A DNA stretch of 64,000 nt from Mesonia sp. HuA40. GTDB taxonomy: Bacteria > Bacteroidota > Bacteroidia > Flavobacteriales > Flavobacteriaceae. The notes under the pieces are model-generated. The model ran no database searches and was not told the DNA's origin. It saw only the letters and a list, made by a program, of their open reading frames with translations. Shown piece by piece: positions 35,650 through 41,935 of this stretch. The stretch is from positions 1-64,000 of the forward strand of contig NZ_VRLT01000021.1 of assembly GCF_008017835.1 (NCBI RefSeq). The letters are read 5' to 3'. Positions within the stretch are counted from its first letter, which is position 1, and each line of letters starts with the position of its first letter. The position numbers and the translations under genes are program-made.

Positions 35650-37017
35650 CTATATTGTCATAGAAAACAATTTTGTATCGGGTTTGTTACGTTGTAAGCG
35701 CCAGTCGAAAGCCATACAAGCATTGCGTACAAAAGCGCGACCAGCTGGTGTGATTTCCAACTCTTTTCCAGTAATACAAATTAATCCATCACTAATCATT
35801 TCATCTAGAAGCTGCAAGCTTTCAGGCAGTTTTTCAAAATAATCCTTTTGCTGTTGCCAATTGGTTTTTAATTGACACATAAGGTTTAAAATATGCTTGC
35901 GAATAACCAAGTCTTCTTGATTTAATATATGTCCTTTTACCACGGGTAATATTCCTTCTTCAACCATAGCCTGGTATTTTTCAACGCGTTTTTCGTTTTG
36001 GGCAAATCCGTACCAACTGTCGCTTATAGAAGATGTTCCTAAACCAATCATTAATTGTGTTTTTGAAGCAGTATACCCCATGAAATTGCGGTGCAATTTA
36101 TGATTTTGCATTGCCTGATACATAGAGTCAGATTTAAGCGCAAAATGATCCATTCCAATTTCAATGTATCCCATTTCTTCTAACAAAGCCTTACCTAACT
36201 CATATTGCTCTCTCTTAACAGTTGGTTTTGGTAAATCGTTTTCATTAAAACCACGCTGTCCATTCCCTTTTATCCAAGGTACGTGAGCATAGCTGTAAAA
36301 TGCGATACGGTCTGGTAATAGTTCTTTAGTTTTCAATATAGTTTCCTTAACTGCATTTGTACTTTGAAAAGGAAGACCAAAAATAATATCATGACTTACC
36401 GAAGTATAGCCTATTTCGCGCGCCCATTCTGTAACTTTTTTTACATTTTCAAAAGGTTGTATTCTATTAATGGCCTTTTGTACCGTAAGATTATAATCTT
36501 GTACCCCATAGCTAACACGTCTAAAACCTAAATCATATAAGGTTTGTAAGTGTGCTTTGGTTGTGTTGTTAGGATGCCCCTCAAAACTATATTCATAAGT
36601 TTCAGCTCGTGAAGCAAGTTTAAAAATACCTTCTATAAGTTGCTTTAAGTTCTCTGGCGAAAAAAAGGTTGGAGTTCCTCCACCTAGATGCAATTCTTTA
36701 ATAATTGGCCGGGCTGGAAGTAAATTACAGTATAAACGCCATTCTTTTAAAACACTTTGTAAATATGGAGTTTCTACTTCGTGTCTTTTGGTAATTCTTT
36801 TATGGCATCCACAAAAAGTGCAAAGTTGTTCACAAAAGGGTAAATGTATATAAATACTAATTCCTTCTTGTACGTTACTTTCTTTAAAAGATTTTATAAA
36901 TGTACTTTCCCAGGCTTTAGCAGTAAAACTTGACTCGTCCCAGTAAGGTACAGTAGGATAACTCGTGTATCTAGGGCCAGGGATATTGTACTTTTGTATT
37001 AAGCTATGTGTTTCCAT
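35650..37017 (-). CDS. hemN: Oxygen-independent coproporphyrinogen III oxidase
   Basis: A 455-residue radical-SAM enzyme that converts coproporphyrinogen III to protoporphyrinogen IX without oxygen, for haem synthesis under low oxygen. The iron-sulphur motif CEQLCTFCGC (CxxxCxxC) is near residue 60, with YIHLPF before it and LHLGGGTPTFF after. The N-terminal KYNIPGPRYTSYPTVPYW and the long C-terminal domain mark true HemN and not the HemW look-alike. It follows the universal stress protein gene by 2 nt. The shared promoter has an FNR-like box. Confidence 0.94.
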   Translation of the reverse strand: METHSLIQKYNIPGPRYTSYPTVPYWDESSFTAKAWESTFIKSFKESNVQEGISIYIHLPFCEQLCTFCGCHKRITKRHEVETPYLQSVLKEWRLYCNLLPARPIIKELHLGGGTPTFFSPENLKQLIEGIFKLASRAETYEYSFEGHPNNTTKAHLQTLYDLGFRRVSYGVQDYNLTVQKAINRIQPFENVKKVTEWAREIGYTSVSHDIIFGLPFQSTNAVKETILKTKELLPDRIAFYSYAHVPWIKGNGQRGFNENDLPKPTVKREQYELGKALLEEMGYIEIGMDHFALKSDSMYQAMQNHKLHRNFMGYTASKTQLMIGLGTSSISDSWYGFAQNEKRVEKYQAMVEEGILPVVKGHILNQEDLVIRKHILNLMCQLKTNWQQQKDYFEKLPESLQLLDEMISDGLICITGKELEITPAGRAFVRNACMAFDWRLQRNKPDTKLFSMTI

Positions 37018-37019
37018 CT

Positions 37020-37850
37020 TTATTCGTGTAAAACCAAAAATGGTATTTCTCTAGGATAGCTGATGTTTTTTTCTATAGGTTGAAAAAGCAGGTTTTGAAA
37101 AAGATAGACATTTTTAGCAGGAAGCGCGATCATTTGTATGTCTTCCAAAGTAATAAATTCTTGCAAAGCCTTACAGAGTGAGTTTTTTACTGTAAACTGA
37201 AAACTATGGGGTAAATATTTAATATATTCTTTCAAACGTGCCTTATTGCTGGTTTGGAAAGGTGTAAGCGAGTCGTTATTTTTTGCTACATATAGTACAC
37301 TTAAAGTCGAATGATTTAAATGAAGAATTTCGGCTAGATTTCTAAACACTCTTTCTTTGCTAAAATTCGAAAAATCTGTAGGAAAAACTATTTGCTCGGG
37401 TTTTTTATATTTAGTTTTTTCTGGTACCACCAAGATGGGGCATTGTATACGCTTAATTACATCTGCCGTGTTGGTGCCAATAAGACACTTTTCATTATTT
37501 GAAACACCTTTTGTACCCATTACAATATAGGTTATTTTCAACTGATTTATGATTTGTCGTAGTGTTTCAATTAAAAAACCAGTTTCTATATGAAAATTTA
37601 TTTGTTCTGATTGTAGCGGAAAATTTTTGGCAATCTTTTCTTTAAGCTGCTTTAATTTATCTTCGCCAACAGATATTTTTTTATCAATAGCTATATTTCC
37701 TGAAAACTCAAGGCTTTCCTCTTCTTGAGTGGAAGATTCAACGTGAACCACGTGAAAAACAACATTTACCTCCTTAAAGAATGCTAAACTATACTGTATA
37801 GCGTTCCAGGAATTTTCAGAGAAATCTGTTGGGATTAAAATGTTCATCAC
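37020..37850 (-). CDS. Universal stress protein, tandem Usp domains
   Basis: A 276-residue protein with two Usp domains. The first (about 1-145) starts MNILIPTDFSENS and has the ATP-site-like motif GTKGVSNNEKCLIGTNTADVI-type sequence (VMGTKG, then GTNTADVIKRI and CPILVVPE). The second (about 150-276) starts IVFPTDFSNFS and is less complete. Usp proteins support survival under starvation, low oxygen or redox stress. It is the first gene of the usp-hemN unit, 2 nt before hemN. A class-II-like FNR box lies upstream. Confidence 0.88.
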   Translation of the reverse strand: MMNILIPTDFSENSWNAIQYSLAFFKEVNVVFHVVHVESSTQEEESLEFSGNIAIDKKISVGEDKLKQLKEKIAKNFPLQSEQINFHIETGFLIETLRQIINQLKITYIVMGTKGVSNNEKCLIGTNTADVIKRIQCPILVVPEKTKYKKPEQIVFPTDFSNFSKERVFRNLAEILHLNHSTLSVLYVAKNNDSLTPFQTSNKARLKEYIKYLPHSFQFTVKNSLCKALQEFITLEDIQMIALPAKNVYLFQNLLFQPIEKNISYPREIPFLVLHE

Positions 37851-37866
37851 TCAATTTATTTGATAG

Positions 37867-37910
37867 CAAAAGTATGAGGATGAGACAAGTTAAAGAATGA
37901 CAAAAATCAG
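37867..37910 (-). promoter_or_regulatory. FNR-like box and -7 element of the usp-hemN promoter
   Basis: Read on the minus strand, the 15-bp box CTGATTTTTGTCATT (37910 to 37896) is followed by exactly 21 nt and then the -7 element TACTTTTG (37874 to 37867). The box has a TGA-N6-TCA core as in FNR sites. Its centre lies 36 nt upstream of the last base of the -7 element, near -41 from the predicted start. The trx promoter has the same layout. Confidence 0.65.
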
Positions 37911-37917
37911 TTTTGTA

Positions 37918-38961
37918 TTATTCTACAGTAGAAAGCCCTTTTTTATCTAATATTTTAATATTTCTTCCATCAATATCTATCAATCCGTCTTTTTTAAATT
38001 GTGATAAAGTTCTAATTAAACTTTCAGTGGCAATACCAGCAACACTCGCTAGATCACCCCGTGAGATTTTTATAGTCTCTCCTTGTTTAGGACTTAAAAC
38101 TTCTAAAAACTGTAAGATAGTTTGTGCTGTTTTCTTTCTTACAGAGCCATAAGCCATTTGTAAAAGTTGCAATTTCGTATGTGATAAATTTTCATTCATA
38201 ACATTCATCAATTCTAAAGCTAGCTCTTTATTTACCACCAATATTTCTTTAAGTTTTGTTTTGGGAATTCGGGTAAGTAGGCAGTTTTCTACAGCTGTAG
38301 CCGATTCTTCATAGGCAGTGGTTTCATCAAAAGAAGAAAAACCTAAGAAATCATCTGCTTGATAAAGAGCAGTAATAAGCTCTTTCCCATTTACCGCCAT
38401 ACGTTGTGTTTTTACCACACCCTTAATAATAAGGAAAACAAAATTGGCATGTTCTCCTTCTTGATATATAGGTTTACCTCGCTTTACCTCTAATTCTTCA
38501 CCAAAGTCGTAAAAGTAATTTTTCAGTTCATTTAAATTCCGTAAATCTTGAGCTTTTTGGGGTAAATCTATAGAAGTTTTATTTTCTAATAATTTAGATT
38601 TAGCAATACGACTATTAATGGCTGCCAATAAATCTTCTTCTTCATAAGGTTTGGTAAGGTAGTCGTCTGCTCCAAGATTCATGCCTGTACGCACTTCGGT
38701 ATGGTCTGTCTTTGCAGATAAAAATATAAATGGAATTGATTTTGTCTCTTCTTGTTCTCCTAAGGCTTTTAAAACTTCATACCCATTAAGCTCTGGCATC
38801 ATTATATCACAAACAATAATTTGAGGAAGACTTTTTTGAGCCAAATCAAGGCCTATTTTACCGTTCTTAGCCGTTATAACTTCAAACCCAGATAATTCTA
38901 GAAGTTCTGCTGTATTTTCTCTTAGAGCTTGATCATCTTCAATTAATAAAATTTTTTTCAT
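37918..38961 (-). CDS. Receiver-CRP/FNR fusion response regulator
   Basis: A 347-residue regulator. The receiver domain (1-120) has IIEDD-like LIEDD, phospho-acceptor Asp52 (CDIMMPELNG), and Lys104 (YLTKPY). A cNMP-binding-type beta barrel (about 150-265) is followed by a CRP/FNR helix-turn-helix (about 285-340). The recognition helix reads ATESLIRTLSQF. It keeps the Glu and Arg that contact the TGA half-site in CRP and FNR, but not the FNR Ser. No N-terminal cysteine cluster for an iron-sulphur sensor is present, so the signal should come by phosphorylation. It overlaps the PAS kinase by ATGA. The box upstream of usp-hemN is its best candidate target. Confidence 0.93.
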   Translation of the reverse strand: MKKILLIEDDQALRENTAELLELSGFEVITAKNGKIGLDLAQKSLPQIIVCDIMMPELNGYEVLKALGEQEETKSIPFIFLSAKTDHTEVRTGMNLGADDYLTKPYEEEDLLAAINSRIAKSKLLENKTSIDLPQKAQDLRNLNELKNYFYDFGEELEVKRGKPIYQEGEHANFVFLIIKGVVKTQRMAVNGKELITALYQADDFLGFSSFDETTAYEESATAVENCLLTRIPKTKLKEILVVNKELALELMNVMNENLSHTKLQLLQMAYGSVRKKTAQTILQFLEVLSPKQGETIKISRGDLASVAGIATESLIRTLSQFKKDGLIDIDGRNIKILDKKGLSTVE

Positions 38962-40196
38962 CTGGCTTTTAGTGGGTTTTTAGGTATTTTTAAGGTAAAT
39001 GTACTTCCTTTATTTTCAATACTTTTAAAGGATATTTTACCTTGTAAATGTTCCAAGTGATTTTTAATAATATTTAATCCGATTCCTGTTCCTTCTGCCA
39101 TCAAAGCATTTTCTGCTCTAAAGTAGCGGTCAAAAATAAACTTTTGTTCCTCTTTTGGAATCCCGATACCTTCGTCAATAATATTTATATAGAAATCCGT
39201 TTCATCTTGACCCAATTGAATATTAATTTCAGAATTCTCTTCGGAATATTTTATAGCGTTGTTTACCAAATTGGTTAAAGCTAGGGTTAGAATTTTTTCA
39301 TCAAAATTGATTTCTATACCATCGATGTTTTCTGGATATATGATATTTTGACCGTTCTTGAGAACCATGTTTGATTCGTAAATTACCTCATTGATAACTT
39401 TACTTAAAGGAAACTGAGTAAAGGAGTAACTTACCTTACCAGATTCAATTTTTTCTAAAGAAAGAAAATCAGTCAATATATCATTGAGGTATTTTACTTT
39501 TGATTTTATCGTTTTTAGGTGTTTATCTCTTTTATCTTGTTGATTTTCTTGAGTGTATTTTCCCGCTAAGGTTGCCGAGGTTAAAATACCGCTTAATGGA
39601 GTTTTAAACTCGTGCGAAACCATAGATAAGAATTTGGTTTTTAAATCGTTTAATTCTCGCTCTTTGTTCAGAGCATTTTTTATTCTATTTTCGGCCTCAA
39701 GTCTTTTTGTAATTTCAGATTTTAGATTGTTTACTGTTTCCTGTAGCTGTAAAGTCCGCTTGGCTACCATATCCTCTAAACGAGAATTTAACTCCCTGAT
39801 CTCTAACTCCGTTTTTTTACGGACACTGATATCGATTATCATAGCCATAATGTAGGTTTCGCCATCTAACTGAATGGGATTAAGGCCAATTTCAATAGGG
39901 AATTCGCTACCGTCTTTCTTTTTGCCATAAAGATCTCTACCAAAGCCCATTCGTCTCTTTTCTTGATTTTTCATGAAGTTACTAGCATACTTGGTATGGG
40001 CGTGCTTATAACGATCTGGTATCAATATTTCTAACAATTTACCTTTAAGTTCTCCAGCTTGGTATTGAAATAATTCGTTGGCAGAAGTATTACTAGCCAC
40101 GATGGTTCGATTTTTATTAACAACTACAATACCTTCCGAAACCGTTTCAAAAAGCAACTTGAAAATATCTTTGTTTTGTGATGCAAATTTTTCCAT
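38958..40196 (-). CDS. PAS sensor histidine kinase, FixL-like
   Basis: A 412-residue soluble kinase without membrane helices. The PAS domain (about 10-125) resembles that of FixL: LIPDRYKHAHTKYASNF places His67 at the FixL haem His, and RRMGFGRDLYGKKKDGSEFP places Arg87 at the FixL haem-ligand Arg. A coiled coil (about 125-185) leads to the phospho-acceptor His195 (SMVSHEFKTPL) and the ATPase domain (NLVNNAIKYS, DEGIGIP, GTGIGLNI). It is translationally coupled to the receiver-CRP regulator. Oxygen sensing through haem is plausible but not proven, as many PAS domains share this pattern without haem. Confidence 0.91.
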   Translation of the reverse strand: MEKFASQNKDIFKLLFETVSEGIVVVNKNRTIVASNTSANELFQYQAGELKGKLLEILIPDRYKHAHTKYASNFMKNQEKRRMGFGRDLYGKKKDGSEFPIEIGLNPIQLDGETYIMAMIIDISVRKKTELEIRELNSRLEDMVAKRTLQLQETVNNLKSEITKRLEAENRIKNALNKERELNDLKTKFLSMVSHEFKTPLSGILTSATLAGKYTQENQQDKRDKHLKTIKSKVKYLNDILTDFLSLEKIESGKVSYSFTQFPLSKVINEVIYESNMVLKNGQNIIYPENIDGIEINFDEKILTLALTNLVNNAIKYSEENSEINIQLGQDETDFYINIIDEGIGIPKEEQKFIFDRYFRAENALMAEGTGIGLNIIKNHLEHLQGKISFKSIENKGSTFTLKIPKNPLKAR

Positions 40197-40229
40197 AAAA
40201 CAGTTGTAGAAAAAAATTAGAAAGCTTAG

Positions 40230-40273
40230 TTGATATTTGTCATTGGAGAAACCTACTAATTTAAGTAACTTTG
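40230..40273 (+). promoter_or_regulatory. FNR-like box and -7 element of the trx-deoC-deoD promoter
   Basis: The 15-bp box TTGATATTTGTCATT (40230-40244) is followed by exactly 21 nt and the -7 element TAACTTTG (40266-40273). Box sequence (13 of 15 bases), orientation and spacing match the usp-hemN promoter. The box also lies in the divergent region upstream of the PAS kinase gene and could serve that promoter too. Confidence 0.65.
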
Positions 40274-40292: not shown

Positions 40293-40592
40293 ATGAAAAC
40301 TAATTTTAATTCGCTACTACAAGGTAAACAACTTGTTTTAGTAGATTTTTATGCCACATGGTGTGGGCCGTGTAAAGCCTTGAATTCCATTTTACAAGAG
40401 GTTAAAAAGGAGGTTGGTGAAGCGGTTAAAATAATAAAAATAGATGTAGACAAGAATCAAAATCTTGCTCAAAAGTTTCAAGTGCGCGGAGTACCTATTT
40501 TAATTCTTTTTAAAAATGCTCAACCTGTTTGGCGTCAATCTGGGGTAGTACCTGCAAACGATTTAAAACAATTAATTCAATCTAACTCATAA
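40293..40592 (+). CDS. Thioredoxin
   Basis: A 99-residue thioredoxin with the active site ATWCGPCKAL at about residue 23-32, the cis-proline motif RGVPILILF and the usual beta-alpha-beta fold. It reduces disulphides in cytoplasmic proteins. It is the first gene of a three-gene unit with deoC (gap 2 nt) and deoD (gap 3 nt). Its promoter carries an FNR-like box, so expression may respond to oxygen or redox state. Confidence 0.9.
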   Translation: MKTNFNSLLQGKQLVLVDFYATWCGPCKALNSILQEVKKEVGEAVKIIKIDVDKNQNLAQKFQVRGVPILILFKNAQPVWRQSGVVPANDLKQLIQSNS

Positions 40593-40594
40593 GC

Positions 40595-41233
40595 ATGAAA
40601 CAATTTATAGATCATACATTATTAAAACCAACGGCAAGCTTACAGCAAATTGAACAACTGTGTCAAGAAGCCAAAGAAAATGAATTTTTTGCTGTTTGTG
40701 TTAACGGTTGTTGGGTAAAACAAGCCGTAAGTTTTTTAAAAGATTCAGATGTTAAGGTGGCAGCAGTTGTAGGCTTTCCGCTAGGGGCAATGCATACCAA
40801 AGCCAAAGTTTTTGAGGCCAAGCAGGCTGTGGCAGATGGCGCACAGGAAATTGATATGGTGCTGAATTTGGGCAATTTTAAATCTGAAAATTATCATGCC
40901 GTAGAAGAAGATATTGCCGCCGTAAAAGAGGCTATAGGTGATTGCACGTTAAAGGTTATTTTAGAAACTTGCTACTTGGAAGAAGAAGAAATTGTAAAAG
41001 CCTGTGAGTTAGCTGTGGCTGCTAAAGCAGATTTTGTGAAAACCTCAACGGGCTTTGGAAGTGCGGGAGCTACCTTAGAGCACGTAAAATTAATGAAATC
41101 TTGTGTAGGAAAACAAGCTGAAGTAAAAGCAAGTGGAGGGATAAGAGATCGAGCCACGGCCGTAAAGTTTATTGAAGCGGGAGCAACACGAATAGGCACT
41201 TCTTCAGGGATTAAAATAGTAACCGATATTTAA
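40595..41233 (+). CDS. deoC: Deoxyribose-phosphate aldolase
   Basis: A 212-residue class I aldolase that splits 2-deoxyribose-5-phosphate into glyceraldehyde-3-phosphate and acetaldehyde in nucleoside salvage. Seen: IDHTLLKPTAS at the N terminus, VVGFPLGAMHT, EIDMVLNLG, and the Schiff-base lysine motif FVKTSTGFGSAGATLE. The proton-relay Lys is in VKASGGIRD. It works with the adjacent nucleoside phosphorylase. Confidence 0.94.
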   Translation: MKQFIDHTLLKPTASLQQIEQLCQEAKENEFFAVCVNGCWVKQAVSFLKDSDVKVAAVVGFPLGAMHTKAKVFEAKQAVADGAQEIDMVLNLGNFKSENYHAVEEDIAAVKEAIGDCTLKVILETCYLEEEEIVKACELAVAAKADFVKTSTGFGSAGATLEHVKLMKSCVGKQAEVKASGGIRDRATAVKFIEAGATRIGTSSGIKIVTDI

Positions 41234-41236
41234 ATT

Positions 41237-41935
41237 ATGAGTATTCACTTAGAGGCAAAAGAAGGGGATATTGCCGAAACTGTTCTCCTACCAGGAGACC
41301 CCTTACGAGCAAAATGGATTGCCGAAACCTTTTTAGAAGATGTAGTATGTTATAACCGGGTTAGGGGAATGCTAGGTTTTACAGGAACTTTTAAAGGAAA
41401 AAGAATTTCGGTGCAAGGCACAGGTATGGGTATACCCTCGGCCTTGATTTATTGTACAGAGTTGATTCGCGATTATGGGGTTAAAAAACTTATACGGGTA
41501 GGCTCGGCTGGAGCTTATCAAGAAAATATTGATTTGCGTGATATTGTAATAGCCATGGCGGCTTCTACTACTTCTGGAATGAACAAAAGTAACTTTGGTG
41601 AGGCTACTTTTGCTCCTACAGCAAACGCCGATTTATTTCTGAAAGCGGTTGAAGTAGCTAAGCAAAAAAATATTGCTTTTAAAGCCGGTAATGTTTTATC
41701 TGGCGATGTTTTTTATGACGATGACCCTAACTTTTATAAAAAATGGGCGCAATACGGAGTTTTATGTGTAGAGATGGAAACCGCCGGATTATATACCATA
41801 GCAGCCAAATTTAATGTTCAAGCCTTGGCTATTCTTACCATTTCAGACTCCTTGGTTACCAAAGCAGAAACCTCTCAAGAAGATAGGGCCAGTAGTTTTA
41901 ATCAAATGATAGAAATTGCATTAGAATTAGCATAG
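41237..41935 (+). CDS. deoD: Purine-nucleoside phosphorylase, DeoD type
   Basis: A 232-residue hexameric-type phosphorylase that releases purine bases and (deoxy)ribose-1-phosphate from nucleosides. Seen: [40 protein letters not shown] with the phosphate-binding Arg, [15 protein letters not shown], and LTISDSLVT with the base-binding Asp. Last gene of trx-deoC-deoD; a strong terminator follows. Confidence 0.94.

Follow-up and report, generated by a model that had tools for sequence, protein, structure and literature searches.

Background

According to the accessible text of PMC4999443, the FixL-FixJ-FixK system of rhizobia and Caulobacter consists of a heme-PAS kinase, a response regulator and a CRP/FNR protein without an iron-sulphur cluster, and controls low-oxygen genes including cco. 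In the hFixL-FxkR-FixKf pathway of Rhizobium etli and R. leguminosarum, a FixL-type sensor controls a FixK-type output (PMC4999443, PMC7888657, accessible text of both). Elsewhere the CRP/FNR family is presented as one-component, without kinase and response-regulator domains (PMC12937710, a structural paper from 2026, accessible part). The accessible parts of two further papers deal with c-di-GMP-binding CRP/FNR proteins (PMC8547461) and with a Flavobacteriales CRP/FNR homologue treated as MalR-like (PMC8510549). A description of a flavobacterial receiver-CRP protein or FixL pair was not found in the accessible portions of the open literature (subscription journals were outside the scope).

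Here we describe a locus of Mesonia sp. HuA40 (genome GCF_008017835.1) in a stretch of 64 kb from contig NZ_VRLT01000021.1, hereafter the window. It encodes a FixL-like histidine kinase and a regulator in which a receiver domain is fused to an FNR-like half, flanked by two promoters with the same FNR-like box. We consider it likely that kinase, receiver-FNR fusion and class II promoters together form the control locus of a low-oxygen regulon.

Two promoters with one arrangement

The promoters of usp-hemN (37867-37909, minus strand) and trx-deoC-deoD (40231-40273, plus strand) were both confirmed in the window sequence as units of 43 bp. The preliminary description of this DNA had reported near-identical boxes at the same distance from the promoter element, and this was borne out. 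The two 15-bp boxes agreed in 13 of 15 positions (mismatches at positions 1 and 6), both contained the TGA-N6-TCA core, and the spacer was the same in both (21 nt counted from the 15-mer, 23 nt counted from TCA). The spacer ends at TAnnTTTG, which we take to be the Bacteroidota -7 promoter consensus. With this constant 23-nt distance the box centre would lie at about -41 relative to the predicted transcription starts. In class II CRP/FNR-dependent promoters the site is centred near -41.5.

The complete arrangement, TGA-N6-TCA-N23-TANNTTTG, occurred twice in the window, against a mean of 0.01 in 100 shuffles of the window, none of which reached two. The 15-bp box alone, with up to two mismatches, matched the window at chance level (2 matches, 2.07 expected). 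Genome-wide, TGATN4GTCAT without the promoter part was not enriched over the reversed pattern (17 and 21 matches, respectively), and the box without promoter was therefore dropped as a search unit. The signal is the box, the fixed spacing and the -7 element jointly, not the box by itself. For the HuA40 genome the exact arrangement searched was TGAY-N4-RTCA followed at 23 nt by TAnnTTTG, with a looser version (TGAT-N5-TCA, spacing 22-24 nt); the controls used below were the reversed pattern and, family-wide, a spacer lengthened by 5 nt. The features of the locus are as follows.

35650..37017, minus strand: hemN, oxygen-independent coproporphyrinogen III oxidase (NCBIfam TIGR00538, 421.8 bits, cut-off 324.95)
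37020..37850, minus strand: usp, universal stress protein, first gene of usp-hemN (Pfam PF00582, E 1.8e-22); the sequence favours the ATG at 37847 as the start
37867..37874, minus strand: -7 element of usp-hemN, TACTTTTG (sequence)
37898..37909, minus strand: FNR-like box TGATTTTTGTCA, 23 nt upstream of the usp-hemN -7 element (sequence; conserved in relatives)
37918..38961, minus strand: receiver-CRP/FNR regulator of 347 amino acids, with receiver, cyclic-nucleotide-binding (cNMP) fold and Crp helix-turn-helix (domain search)
38958..40196, minus strand: FixL-like PAS histidine kinase, overlapping the regulator start (domain search, PDB comparison)
40201..40208, minus strand: degenerate -7-like element TACAACTG, 4 nt upstream of the kinase ATG and 22 nt from the shared box (sequence; putative function)
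40231..40242, no strand: palindromic FNR-like box TGATATTTGTCA, with the kinase and trx promoters diverging on either side (sequence)
40266..40273, plus strand: -7 element of trx-deoC-deoD, TAACTTTG (sequence)
40293..40592, plus strand: trx, thioredoxin (TIGR01068, 109.4 bits, cut-off 96.8)
40595..41233, plus strand: deoC, deoxyribose-phosphate aldolase (TIGR00126, 266.3 bits, cut-off 117.3)
41237..41935, plus strand: deoD, purine-nucleoside phosphorylase (TIGR00107, 317.2 bits, cut-off 232.25)

The earlier gene calls held, with HemN, thioredoxin, DeoC and DeoD above the NCBIfam cut-offs and Usp above the Pfam cut-off. The regulator contained Response_reg, cNMP_binding and HTH_Crp_2. The kinase had the FixL-type architecture, a FixL-related PAS domain followed by HisKA and HATPase_c.

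Predicted targets in strain HuA40

In the genome of strain HuA40 the exact arrangement matched seven times and the looser version eight times, compared with none for the reversed control of the latter. At all seven exact matches, the start of an open reading frame (ORF) on the same strand fell near the end of the -7 element, from 3 nt ahead of it to 31 nt past it. The first site preceded a ccoS-like ORF (by eye) and ccoNO of the cbb3 oxidase (NF011053, TIGR00780 and TIGR00781, above cut-off), and the second a cytochrome-c-like protein (by eye) and the nitrous-oxide reductase gene nosZ (TIGR04246, above cut-off). The third preceded genes for a ferredoxin-NADP-reductase-like flavoprotein and a 2Fe-2S-ferredoxin-like protein, both assigned by eye; in NCBIfam the best match of the former was below cut-off and the latter had no match. 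Two of the others were those of usp-hemN and trx-deoC-deoD, and the remaining two preceded genes for a P-type cation ATPase and a secreted protein. Since the called starts of the last two genes fall inside the -7 element, a later start is likelier for both. The eighth match of the looser pattern lay at the boundary between two genes that point in the direction opposite to the match.

Allowing one mismatch added 13 places, several of them inside or antisense to ORFs; they were judged near background because the reversed control gave nine. By gene context, only two of these are likely extra targets: one upstream of the heavy-metal P-type ATPase gene preceding ccoS, which is probably ccoI, and one upstream of a small Cys-containing protein and a TonB receptor (best NCBIfam match a copper receptor, below cut-off). 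The box with its promoter was enriched and recurred at other low-oxygen genes, such as cbb3, nosZ and the ferredoxin-reductase-like gene, which agrees with the earlier proposal. The small regulon once proposed was supported as a regulon and proved larger than thought: strain HuA40 has seven exact sites, and relatives have as many as 29.

Conservation within the Flavobacteriaceae

Family-wide counts cover 299 genomes of Flavobacteriaceae, and locus-level counts the best 80 of 522 confirmed relatives with the regulator (named loci, 1.007 Mb in total). The relatives are phylogenetically redundant, with many Aquimarina, so that neither set of counts represents independent events. The arrangement occurred 2213 times in the 299 genomes, compared with 47 for the reversed pattern. 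With the spacer lengthened by 5 nt there were 72 matches (our own tally of rows), and 62 genomes had at least one, compared with 262 at 23 nt. In the 80 loci, 160 boxes lay 23 nt from the -7 element, 21 at 24 nt and 9 at 25 nt, with at most eight at every other distance from 0 to 60. In 78/80 relatives the gap separating the regulator from the first usp gene contained the box with its promoter, again in agreement with the earlier proposal; in the remaining two (L055 and L099) the box was present there and the -7 element was imperfect.

The 160 sites gave the profile AAAcTGAYwwwTRTCAT, with a T-rich stretch behind it. The search itself fixed TGA, TCA and the -7 letters, while Y at position 4 (C 0.33, T 0.68), R at position 9 (A 0.49, G 0.51), T8, T13 and the A-rich letters upstream were free. 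For the 190 sites of the 80 loci, the next ORF downstream was assigned to usp in 106 cases, the kinase in 27, trx in 2, hemN in 2 and another gene in 31; 22 sites had none. Ten of the 31 other ORFs encoded a protein of 99 amino acids that resembles a hibernation factor by eye (loci including L043), and the same type of protein was seen in L155. Some relatives carried arrays of up to six usp genes downstream of the regulator. Together with the hibernation-factor-like gene, these arrays are, as we see it, reminiscent of the DosR dormancy regulon.

Besides strain HuA40, sites were annotated in two genomes in which the regulator was the only match (G143 and G027, picked because full site lists existed), with gene names given by similarity to HuA40 proteins or by eye. 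Each had nine sites, including sites upstream of ccoS-ccoN and hemN. G027 also had sites at a cytochrome c with a nosZ-like gene, at usp, at a hibernation-factor-like gene with usp and at a ferredoxin-reductase-like gene, and G143 at a copper-receptor-like operon and a 2-oxoacid-oxidoreductase-like gene. Unexpectedly, sites also preceded a set of three genes that look like an Mla-type ABC transporter operon in both genomes (by eye; L142 and L156, the latter with two boxes).

The putative sensor kinase

The best solved relatives of the kinase PAS domain were FixL (E 4.8e-17) and DosP. Of 14 distinct PDB sequences at E ≤ 1e-5, 13 were FixL (seven), DosP (four) or further heme-PAS proteins (two), and the last was an unnamed multi-sensor kinase; the heme-PAS entry listed as yddU we take to be DosP. 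In FixL the proximal heme ligand is H200 and the distal Arg is R220. The equivalent of the former, H67, was invariant in 79/79 relatives, and that of the latter, R87, was Arg in 76/79 (counted without a non-heme PAS control). The only other PAS_9 match in the HuA40 genome had no readable motif. Because the equivalent of the apolar pocket residue I215 of FixL is polar, the kinase is termed FixL-like and not FixL.

A further 18 loci with distant regulators were fetched, 17 from outside the family and one (L191) from inside. In 15 of them the regulator had a kinase-like ORF next to it on the same strand, and in five the stretch included hemN. Sixteen kinase-like ORFs could be aligned, with the His in 15 and the Arg in 13; that of L182, on the opposite strand, does not align. 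By eye, the kinases of L174, L178, L180 and L190 read almost like rhizobial FixL at these residues, and the PAS domain of L178, from outside the family, matched FixL at E 2.1e-36.

The regulator might read the box while the signal is something other than oxygen sensed through heme. The PAS domain would then sense redox, another ligand or nothing, and the genes would be reached via the respiratory state. PAS domains bind many ligands, and the polar I215 equivalent of the flavobacterial kinases fits such a reading; against it stand the heme-PAS proteins as closest solved relatives, the invariant His with its nearly invariant Arg, and the likeness to rhizobial FixL of kinases beside several orthologues outside the family (by eye; L178 by search). 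We regard this alternative as possible but unlikely, and favour oxygen as the predicted signal of the FixL-like PAS domain.

Candidate readers of the box

The receiver fusion was found in 138/299 genomes with the full protein as query (E ≤ 1e-40). With seven candidates scored per genome this query can miss homologues, and the search was therefore repeated with the CRP half, which matched in 243/299 genomes (E ≤ 1e-15). In this repeat up to 10 candidates were scored per genome, and the assignment to the classes with only the fusion or with no homologue may err for some genomes. Where the fusion was the only match (37 genomes), the median was 7 sites and every genome had at least two. Genomes with the fusion and another match, possibly a second fusion (101), had a median of 11 and none lacked sites. 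Those with a CRP-half match and no fusion (105) had a median of 5, two of them with zero. The 56 genomes with no homologue had a median of 0, and 35 of them had no site. Rank tests on this contrast take the genomes as unrelated. It was kept among genomes of at least 2.5 Mb, with medians of 7 (35 fusion-only genomes) and 1 (15 genomes without homologue). Within the genus g73, G073 had neither match nor site, and G284 had the fusion and 11 sites.

Since sites occur in all but two of the 105 genomes with standalone homologues only, the box alone does not identify its regulator. Sixteen non-fused matches from 15 genomes were aligned; they had 222-256 amino acids, an N-terminal CxxC in 14/16 and a TATES(A/S)IR helix in 12/16. 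An example of the recognition helix is GTATESAIRVLSQFKKEGLI in a standalone protein, compared with GIATESLIRTLSQFKKDGLI in the fusion. The near-identity of the recognition helices makes it probable that, in many other flavobacteria, a standalone FNR-like protein uses this operator too; the box would then not be private to the kinase-regulator pair.

These observations bear on the alternative in which a different CRP/FNR protein of the cell recognises the box and the receiver-CRP protein is a mere neighbour. The standalone-only genomes with sites and the nearly identical helix in 12 of the 16 non-fused sequences speak for it. In the HuA40 genome, however, the sole CRP-half homologue at E ≤ 1e-15 was the regulator itself (all five candidates scored). 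There were three other CRP-like loci. One of them (L002, G000:C4:4301-4555) was rejected as a reader of the box because it is a CRP-like relic with an in-frame TAG and frame breaks; it is possibly the remnant of a lost regulator. Another (L004) was rejected because the recognition-helix Glu is absent. The third (L003), a short protein ending right after the helix, was set aside provisionally; it keeps the E-x-x-S-R pattern, which leaves this alternative some room. Sites were moreover present in all 37 genomes in which the fusion was the only match among the candidates scored. We judge a different reader improbable in strain HuA40, and the receiver-FNR fusion remains our candidate.

The regulator and its mode of action

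The receiver domain has the acidic pair D9/D10, the phospho-Asp D52, the Ser/Thr position S82 and K104. D9, D10, D52 and K104 were invariant in 80/80 relatives, and S82 was Ser in 78 and Thr in two. The CRP/FNR half has the cNMP fold and a Crp helix-turn-helix, whose recognition helix carries the Glu and Arg (E313 and R317) named earlier as those that read TGA; both were likewise invariant in 80/80. A conserved cysteine cluster for a 4Fe-4S centre was not found in the alignment, in which only C51 of the receiver is conserved and the next Cys column reached 10/81. The position of the CRP Arg that binds the cyclic AMP phosphate was E219, Glu in 80/80 (placed by eye against CRP). These residues set the regulator apart from FNR, since it has no conserved cysteine cluster, and from CRP, since the Arg is missing. 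The intact phosphorylation site and the missing cluster are also consistent with the earlier proposal of control by phosphorylation rather than by a direct iron-sulphur sensor. No solved chain among the best 60 of 225 matches covered both halves. In the phylum, full-length homologues (E ≤ 1e-50) were present in at least 56 of 395 genomes and in nine of the sampled families (f1-f5, f7-f10), a lower bound with five candidates scored per genome.

TGA-N6-TCA was found within 100 nt of the kinase start codon in 50/79 relatives. The common layout had the box at -48 and the -7 element 24 nt further on, 4 nt before the ATG, with an intact TAnnTTTG at this place in many relatives. The short distance between -7 element and ATG (many of L030-L109; 40197-40208 in the window) suggests a leaderless kinase-regulator transcript. 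An Arenibacter-like group had the box at about -36, with 11-12 nt between box and -7 element. This spacing, seen in L095, L097, L102, L103, L106 and L107 instead of 23-24 nt, suggests repression of the kinase operon there, not activation. The kinase-regulator operon itself is probably among the targets. The box assigned earlier to the trx promoter is present as such, but at the same time it sits 46 nt ahead of the kinase ATG. In many relatives a box of autoregulatory appearance is found at this place, whereas trx directly followed a site in the loci of only 2 of the 80 relatives. One palindrome may serve two divergent promoters, with trx as a lineage-specific user.

The regulator could instead be a repressor, or work without phosphorylation through a ligand in the cNMP fold. 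The fold is kept, and in relatives such as L095, L097, L103 and L106 the kinase box is some 11-12 nt upstream of the -7 element, so that a protein sitting on it should obstruct RNA polymerase. The invariant Glu at the place of the CRP phosphate-binding Arg and the invariant receiver residues argue against a ligand, and the fixed class II spacing argues for activation. Overall, a repressor or ligand-driven protein seems very improbable to us compared with a phosphorylated activator. Chance similarity of two AT-rich promoters, to which the chance-level count of the 15-bp box alone would point, deserves virtually no credence and is refuted by the counts of box with spacing in the window, the HuA40 genome, the 80 loci and the 299 genomes and by the shifted spacer.

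Proposed mechanism

We propose that falling oxygen is sensed by the FixL-like PAS kinase, which would phosphorylate the receiver domain of the regulator with its FNR/FixK-like DNA-binding half. The activated regulator would bind TGAY-N4-RTCA; since the box mostly lies 23 nt from TAnnTTTG, with its centre at about -41, class II activation is proposed. In the simplest reading this would be a Fix cascade carried by two proteins. The predicted targets are the cbb3 oxidase with neighbouring assembly genes, nosZ and the ferredoxin-reductase-like/ferredoxin-like pair, as well as oxygen-independent heme synthesis, the universal stress protein, thioredoxin and genes for nucleoside salvage; the operon of kinase and regulator is probably another.

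Several points weigh against this mechanism. DNA binding, activation, heme, oxygen as the signal and phosphotransfer are all steps that we infer from sequence. The heme pocket is non-canonical, with R82 at the I215 position here and mostly Q in relatives. The site before the secreted protein in strain HuA40 has no evident link to low oxygen, and the genes behind five sites of G143 and G027 (L143, L146, L147, L148, L157) have no evident link to oxygen. Sites are also found in the genomes with standalone matches only, and five genomes without a homologue carry at least five: G238 (11), G048 (9), G147 (7), G138 and G205 (5 each). On rechecking site-rich genomes of this class with all candidates, G205 and G138 again had none and G238 a weak match. 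The loose arrangement was present in 4 of the 17 loci outside the family, and none of these four fitted TGAY-N4-RTCA, so that the operator is supported within the family only; in L191, inside the family, the loose arrangement was present.

Comparison with known systems

The FNR/FnrN regulators share the TGA-N6-TCA type of box, the helix Glu and Arg and, as predicted here, the class II position and low-oxygen targets. They differ in being iron-sulphur one-component regulators, whereas the fusion has no conserved cysteine cluster and carries a receiver in place of a direct sensor. The standalone flavobacterial FNR-like regulator (MSKCEQC type) has a nearly identical helix, and sites are present where only this type was found. 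Unlike the fusion, it lacks a receiver and has an N-terminal CxxC in most cases; it was not found in strain HuA40 at E ≤ 1e-15. The receiver-FNR fusion, apparently wired to a FixL-like kinase, seems to fall outside the standard descriptions of the FNR family. It adds comparative evidence for a CRP/FNR output that has a receiver in the same protein and a FixL-like kinase as its partner, which contrasts with the one-component description, and for a predicted flavobacterial regulon in which the cbb3 oxidase and nitrous-oxide reductase are included. The operator definition, the target list and the genomes with one regulator, both or none provide a natural contrast, with which the exchange of one- and two-component regulators over one operator set becomes testable.

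The locus resembles FixL-FixJ-FixK in its PAS kinase, its receiver, its cluster-free CRP/FNR output and the presence of cco among the predicted targets. It differs in its flavobacterial host, in its promoter type and in heme being a prediction here. Receiver and CRP/FNR output are moreover one protein, which leaves neither a FixJ nor a separate step of transcription leading to FixK. In hFixL-FxkR-FixKf, FxkR and FixKf are separate proteins and FxkR recognises another motif, as far as the accessible text of the sources goes. We lean slightly towards the view that the Flavobacteriaceae, and perhaps other Bacteroidota, use a collapsed Fix cascade in which one operator set, read by the fusion and by a standalone FNR-like protein that coexists with it or is replaceable, has been handed between one- and two-component regulators, with the two-component form alone in lineages such as that of strain HuA40.

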